Source: Chloroflexota bacterium (GTDB lineage Bacteria; Chloroflexota; Limnocylindria; Limnocylindrales; CSP1-4). From it: a DNA stretch of 32,301 nucleotides. This document shows, piece after piece, positions 31,502 through 32,301 of this stretch. Made by a program: the position numbers and the translations under genes. Under the pieces are notes generated by a model. The model ran no database searches. It saw nothing but the letters and a program-made list of their open reading frames with translations, and was not told the origin of the DNA. The first letter of the stretch is position 1; each line of letters begins with the position of its first letter. The stretch lies in contig PLOC01000078.1 in assembly GCA_003141955.1 (NCBI GenBank), positions 1-32,301 on the forward strand. Reading direction: 5' to 3'.

Positions 31502-31852
31502 ATGAGCAAGGAGCGTTCTTTGTACGCGTCGGACAAGACCCTGGTTTGCCAGGATTGCAACCAGGAGTTCGTCTTCAGTGCGAGCGAGCAGGCCTTCTTC
31601 GCTGAGCGACAGTTCAGCGAGCCGCGCCGCTGCCCCTCGTGCCGCGCCGCCCGCAAGGCCCAGCGCGGTGATTTCGGTGGTGGATCTCACATGGGTGGCA
31701 GTGGCGGCGGCCGCGGTGGCTACTCCTCCGGTCCGCGTGAGATGTTCTCGGCCACGTGCTCGAGCTGCGGCCGCGAGGCCCAGGTCCCGTTCCGGCCGAG
31801 CGGCGCCAAGCCGGTCTACTGCAGCGACTGCTTCACTGCCCGTCGCGGGTAG
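31502..31852 (+). CDS. Small zinc-ribbon protein with four CxxC pairs
   Basis: A 116-residue protein with two zinc-ribbon-like modules joined by a Gly/Ser linker. Cys16/Cys19 (CQDC) and Cys44/Cys47 (CPSC) form the first module, which matches the bacterial probable-zinc-ribbon type (DKTLVCQDCNQEFVFSASEQ, FFAERQFSEPRRCPSCRAARK). The linker (about 58-78) is GGGSHMGGSGGGRGG. Cys86/Cys89 and Cys107/Cys110 form the second, CxxC-17-CxxC module (CSSCGREAQVPFRP, PVYCSDCF), close to the known CxxC-20-CxxC-type family. The ATG at 31502 has GAGG 4 bases upstream. Its function is unknown; a nucleic-acid-binding or stress role is only inferred. It ends in a strong terminator. Confidence 0.85.
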   Translation: MSKERSLYASDKTLVCQDCNQEFVFSASEQAFFAERQFSEPRRCPSCRAARKAQRGDFGGGSHMGGSGGGRGGYSSGPREMFSATCSSCGREAQVPFRPSGAKPVYCSDCFTARRG

Positions 31853-31882: not shown

Positions 31883-31910
31883 AGAGCCCGGCGATTTCGC
31901 CGGGCTCTTT
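31883..31910 (+). terminator. Intrinsic terminator of the zinc-protein gene
   Basis: An 11-bp perfect stem, AGAGCCCGGCG (31883-31893) and CGCCGGGCTCT (31898-31908), with an ATTT loop, followed by a short T run. It is 30 bases after the stop codon. The group II intron begins only 4 bases after the T run. Confidence 0.9.
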
Positions 31911-31914
31911 CAAT

Positions 31915-32301
31915 GTACGCCCGGCATGGGCAGCAGCTTGAAGGTGAAAGTCCTTTGAGGATGTAGGTGGTACGAACCTCTAGCCGGAGGCAACGGCGTC
32001 ACCGTGAGGTGGGGTCGGAAGGAAGCCCGAGGCAAAGCTCCGACCCGAGGAACACGAACCGCATACGAGGCTGGGCAGCCCGGATGAGCCGGCAAGACAC
32101 GGTGAAGTCCGCGACCACCAAAGGGCTGTCAGGTAGATGCGGCGGGGCTGGAGCGAAAGCGGCTGCCCTTATCCGGGGAGGCCTCGCCGGGTGCCGGAGC
32201 GATCCGGCCGTCCTCATCGCAAGGTGGCGATGGACCGGTCAGGAGTCAGCAGCGGCCATAGTACCGGCGGGGATCAGCATCGCCGGGAAGGGCCAAACGT
32301 C
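31915..32301 (+). mobile_element. Group II intron, 5' part (continues beyond the window)
   Basis: The sequence from about 31915 matches the 5' ribozyme region of bacterial group II introns as I know them: an opening GTACGCCCGGCATGGGC (usually GTGCG), AAGGTGAAAGTCCTTT, GAGGAACACGAACCGCAT, and GGCTGGGCAGCCCGGATGAG. At 32246-32301 there is the block AGTCAGCAGCGGCCATAGTAC and then GAAGGGCCAAACG, which precedes the start of the intron-encoded reverse transcriptase in relatives. The maturase gene and domains V-VI should lie just past the window end. The insertion point is directly behind an intrinsic terminator, a preference known for class C introns, but I cannot assign the class. The third base differs from the GUGYG consensus. 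Confidence 0.85.

Follow-up and report, generated by a model that had tools for sequence, protein, structure and literature searches.

A probable group IIC intron, cut short by a contig end, downstream of a terminator hairpin in a Chloroflexota genome

The last bases of a contig from a Chloroflexota MAG, positions 31915–32301 on the plus strand, are the first 387 nt of a group II intron, and we assign the element, with a probability of about 0.94, to the 5′ portion of a mobile intron of class C (group IIC). The window, by which we mean the whole stretch of 32,301 nucleotides that was analysed, is the complete contig C88, and the maturase, domains V–VI and the 3′ end of the intron therefore fall outside it. 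As a representative of a known family the element is unremarkable; it is placed where class C introns normally insert, and it extends their already documented terminator-targeting habit to a Chloroflexota MAG lineage. It also offers clean comparative evidence on site choice, in the form of empty sites, an orthologous filled site and the matching of EBS1–IBS1 words. Only two points are mildly unusual, the misfit between EBS1 and IBS1 in the window copy and the intron 5′ stubs that linger behind terminators, and these provide small leads on how such introns change targets and die out.

An intron 5′ end behind a terminator hairpin

Two Rfam models match the plus strand in succession, RF02001 (group-II-D1D4-3, 31998–32167, 134.3 bits, E 8e-28) followed by RF01998 (group-II-D1D4-1, 32208–32293, 59.6 bits), the latter at a position that lies shortly upstream of the maturase start in relatives. 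Together they place conserved domain I–IV RNA in the window copy. The identification of 31915–32301 draws as well on 87% identity to a further copy elsewhere in this genome and on longer relatives (L007, L044 and L046).

Upstream of the intron lies the hairpin AGAGCCCGGCG-ATTT-CGCCGGGCTCT (31883–31908, plus strand), with an 11-bp stem and a 4-nt loop, which serves as the target-site recognition element. Folded as DNA it has an energy of −15.3 kcal/mol, with a z-score of −5.9 against shuffles. The hairpin closes the gene of a 116-residue CxxC-x17-CxxC zinc-ribbon protein (31502–31852, plus strand; NCBIfam TIGR04272, 67.8 bits). This gene and its 3′ end have strong matches in most sister genomes, and in most of them the orthologous gene likewise ends in a comparable hairpin, which is present in orthologues that have the intron as well as in those that lack it. 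A strict U-tract terminator scan left the 31883–31908 hairpin unscored, and the T-run here is short (TTTC). Terminators of this high-GC lineage, as seen at 31883–31914 and in the sister genomes, combine strong stems with short T-runs, and because the T-runs are short the standard scan misses them.

The exon boundary was set by comparison with empty sites in sister genomes. CTCTTTCAAT runs directly into TGCC in G014 and into GTACG in the window, while in G005 and G002 the orthologous CTCTTTGAT runs into TC. Taken to another extent, the same junction reads CGGGCTCTTTCAAT followed by TGCC in G014 and by GTACGCC in the window. The 5′ exon thus ends at 31914 and the intron begins with G1 at 31915, with a spacer of 6 nt between hairpin and intron. 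The last four bases of the exon, CAAT (31911–31914, plus strand), are assigned to IBS1 from EBS1–IBS1 pairing in relatives and from the empty sites. A preliminary description of this DNA, made from the sequence alone, had placed a group II intron directly behind an intrinsic terminator, starting about 6 bases past its stem. The Rfam domains and the hairpin fold (z = −5.9) bear out the first of these statements, and the empty-site comparison confirms the second.

The missing parts were supplied by the second copy in the window genome (C49), by an orthologue in a sister species (G003) and by about 30 relatives, and what is said here of the maturase and domains V–VI of the window copy is taken from copies 87–88% identical to it. 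The C49 copy (87% identical) lies behind a different hairpin, downstream of a tRNA gene; a scaffold gap interrupts its maturase ORF, and the contig edge carries a domain V-like sequence. The G003 copy (88% identical) lies behind the same hairpin as the window copy and includes the maturase and the 3′ end, on a contig that matches GenBank PMXQ01000095 (Chloroflexi MAG). Its junctions read CTCTTTCGAT/GTACG at the 5′ side and CCCGAT/TCTC at the 3′ side. The insertion probably predates the split between the window species and G003, and would have been inherited in place from their shared ancestor. When the 3′ flank of the G003 copy was used to look for that of the window copy in its own genome, no match was obtained. 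Of the other copies, that in G006 has both ends with internal gaps, and RF00029 identifies domain V in G190 and in the relative L046. Full copies end in CCCGAT or CTCAAT, consistent with AY, and the intron is about 1.9 kb long in this family.

Intron class and the GTACG start

By protein sequence comparison, the maturases of the intron copies are class C. With these copies, and not the window, as the query, the best PDB matches were GsI-IIC (1.2e-110) and E. rectale IIC (2.9e-77), against 6.3e-25 for LtrA (IIA) and 1.1e-19 for TeI4c (IIB), which are not the nearest. The GsI-IIC reverse transcriptase of Geobacillus stearothermophilus (PDB 6ar1) is itself a class C maturase, alignable across nearly the whole query (E 1e-110), and differs in its host phylum and at about half of the residues. 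The G003 maturase contains RVT_1 and GIIM domains, the only ones found by Pfam, with no endonuclease (En) domain, and in relatives the maturase ORF runs directly into domain V. TIGR04416 scored 296 bits on a partial maturase protein, relative to a cut-off of 300.

In a tree of 31 maturases, from which labelled members of classes D, E and F are absent and which does not resolve the deep order of its class C part, the copies form a clade (100/99) with introns of Streptomyces, Nocardiopsis, Geodermatophilus and other actinobacteria. GsI-IIC, E. rectale IIC and an integron intron lie in the same part of the tree as this clade, and distant plasmid maturases are separate from it. The actinobacterial introns (L055–L086) share the domain I layout and likewise all lie behind hairpins, but have EBS1/IBS1 words of their own (CATG/CRTG, ACGA/NCGT and CACG/CGTG) and mostly GTGTG starts. 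The C-attC integron introns (Klebsiella L188 and possibly Planctomycetota L099–L122) belong to a class C-type maturase lineage as well, whereas their sites look like integron attC and those described here are terminators. Three planctomycete introns (L099, L102 and L122) share the 5′ bases GTACGCCCGGCATGGGC with this intron; their sites are possibly integron attC, and their maturases group with that of the Klebsiella integron intron (88/88).

The preliminary description had raised the possibility that the intron targets terminators but belongs to another class than C, on the grounds that the opening bases and the block before the maturase resemble longer non-C introns. We consider this barely credible. 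The same opening occurs in relatives that carry class C maturases, the maturase E-values for GsI-IIC and E. rectale IIC are better than those for IIA and IIB by over 50 orders of magnitude, the EBS1 word is only 4 nt long, and the 6-nt gap between hairpin and intron leaves no single-stranded IBS2. Maturase phylogeny, which had been proposed as a check and was carried out on the copies, groups them with class C within the set of 31 and so also speaks against a non-C intron. The other suggestion was that pairing at the 5′ splice site is altered in this intron; on that reading we would expect GTACG to stand in for GTGYG together with a compensating partner. The observation behind it is sound, as the window copy does open with GTACG and not GTGCG, and relatives open with GTACG, GTGCG or GTGTG. 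A partner is conceivable in the IC1 hairpin CACC-GTGA-GGTG (32000–32011, plus strand), located from the alignment of relatives and the RF02001 alignment, whose loop is presumably ε′: A3–C4 could pair with G–U in the GTGA loop of the window copy. However, GTACG also opens six other introns of the aligned set (C49, G003, L046, L055, L085 and L119). It is found with a GTGA loop in the window, G003, L046 and L055 and with a GCGA loop in C49, L085 and L119; GTGYG starts likewise occur with both loops, and no covariation between GTACG and the IC1 loop was found among the aligned introns. Since GTACG is common and is combined with either loop, it is not evidence for altered pairing, which we regard as very unlikely. 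The GTACG start instead appears as a frequent 5′ variant with no sign of changed splice-site pairing.

Target-site choice and the EBS1 mismatch

IIC introns are known to insert at intrinsic terminators (PMC4424553), and the class C target has been described as a stem-loop with relaxed sequence requirements (PMC7161350). The search for further copies behind terminators that the preliminary description had advised was productive: all 37 insertion sites, stubs included, have a hairpin in the 50 bases upstream that lies above the 95th percentile of controls (740 positions from the same loci), and the hairpin mostly ends 4–7 nt before the intron. The placement of the intron behind a hairpin is not chance.

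Alignment of 15 introns revealed that four bases of domain I, immediately 3′ of GAGCCGGC or the corresponding sequence, complement the last four exon bases. The EBS1/IBS1 words are AAGA/TCTT, AATC/GATT, ATTG/CGAT, CACG/CGTG, CATG/CRTG and CAAA/TTTG. Over 16 combinations, 53 of 64 positions pair, compared to a mean of 30.8 with shuffled partners, and none of 20,000 shuffles was as good. The signal is present only at zero shift and is lost on sliding the exon word by one base. An earlier candidate for EBS1, the stretch AAAGGG / AAGGGG combined with a gap of 4 nt ahead of G1, was dropped, as the 15-intron alignment puts EBS1 after GAGCCGGC. With the stem beginning 6 nt upstream of the intron, and no room for a single-stranded IBS2, exon recognition is of the short class C type, through a 4-nt EBS1–IBS1 pairing without an extended IBS2–EBS2.

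Ta.it.I1 and other IIC introns resemble this intron in that the 5′ splice site is read by a stem-loop plus a short IBS–EBS pairing, and in their insertion at terminators (PMC7161350, PMC4424553). The window copy differs from them in having GTACG rather than GTGYG and in the mismatch of its own EBS1 to IBS1. Following the IIC literature, we propose that the ribonucleoprotein would bind the hairpin in single-stranded DNA, that reverse splicing would take place between IBS1 and the 3′ exon, and that the maturase would then copy the intron from a replication-fork primer. Going by what is known of IIC introns, insertion behind terminators would spare host genes.

EBS–IBS pairing was a further check named in the preliminary description, and its outcome is divided, in that the family pairs as described above but the window copy does not. 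The alignment and pairing test locate the window EBS1, AAGA, in domain I at 32094–32097 (plus strand), where it fails to match CAAT at 31911–31914, pairing at one of four positions. The EBS1 of the G003 orthologue, ATTG, fits its own site. The window word AAGA is the EBS1 of the C49 copy, whose site is TCTT. Class C introns splice mainly by hydrolysis unless the maturase helps. Given the lack of a match between AAGA and CAAT, the window copy is probably unable to splice efficiently from its present site, or to re-home to it.

Gene conversion from a C49-like copy, an independent change and an assembly chimera would all explain the EBS1 mismatch. As a chimera, the window copy would combine the 5′ flank and first bases of the orthologous locus with an EBS1 region from the C49 copy. 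At positions that distinguish C49 from G003, the window follows G003 at many and C49 around EBS1; the final ~30 nt up to the contig end match C49 exactly, and each of the two copies is interrupted by a contig end or a scaffold gap, all of which favours such a joining. However, window-specific bases and alternating affinities extend along the whole intron with no single junction, and gene conversion or an independent change of EBS1 would give the same picture. We therefore view a chimera as possible though doubtful. If true, the EBS1 mismatch would be an artefact, but the intron itself would stand.

Intron stubs and rearranged copies

Isolated intron 5′ stubs of 21–71 nt are found directly behind terminator hairpins in related genomes, mostly ones without a maturase gene. 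Four are in G026 (L010:1501, 71 nt; L018, minus strand, 1501, 57 nt; L025:1501, 57 nt; L041:1501, 30 nt), and the others are in G006 (L023:1501, 22 nt), G081 (L032:1501, ~21 nt) and G074 (L131:1501, 69 nt). All are very short relative to the ~1.9 kb intron. G026 additionally has a single 3′ remnant that stands apart from them, and a reverse transcriptase gene was not found in this genome. Downstream of the stubs, no remnant of an intron 3′ end was found above shuffles. In G006, the spacer that separates the stub from the convergent gene is at the lower end of the lengths found in sister genomes.

The most plausible interpretation of the stubs is that they are fossils left by an intron that has been lost. 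We had considered functional mini-elements, which are disfavoured: the best case, G026, has no reverse transcriptase gene and the G006 spacer is short, and for these reasons decay by deletion is preferred. The G006 spacer fits a deletion that also shortened the spacer, in what is a single sister-genome comparison, and such deletion only partly explains why the stubs are uniformly short. In a more far-reaching scenario, gene conversion would rapidly swap the 4-nt EBS1 among copies of class C introns and thereby re-target them, stranding introns like the window copy at sites that they have ceased to recognise, and the stubs would be direct products of aborted insertion instead of later deletion; we think this improbable.

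In L007 (G006:C79), some 20 bases of the hairpin upstream of the intron (CCGGTTCGCCGGCGGCCGTTC) are found again a few tens of bases past the intron 3′ end, which would fit either a partial duplication of the target hairpin or a near-identical terminator of the convergent gene. In L106:1026-7103 (Gemmatales KatS3mg105, BPJP01000020), three near-identical introns are arranged head-to-tail; the first and second agree at 2025 of 2030 bases, and the second and third each begin directly after the preceding CCCGAT. Here, the domain VI hairpin and tail may itself serve as a target. Finally, in L144:1-1680 (G073:C45), a unit of ~730 bp comprising an intron 3′ remnant and a downstream hairpin is duplicated in tandem.
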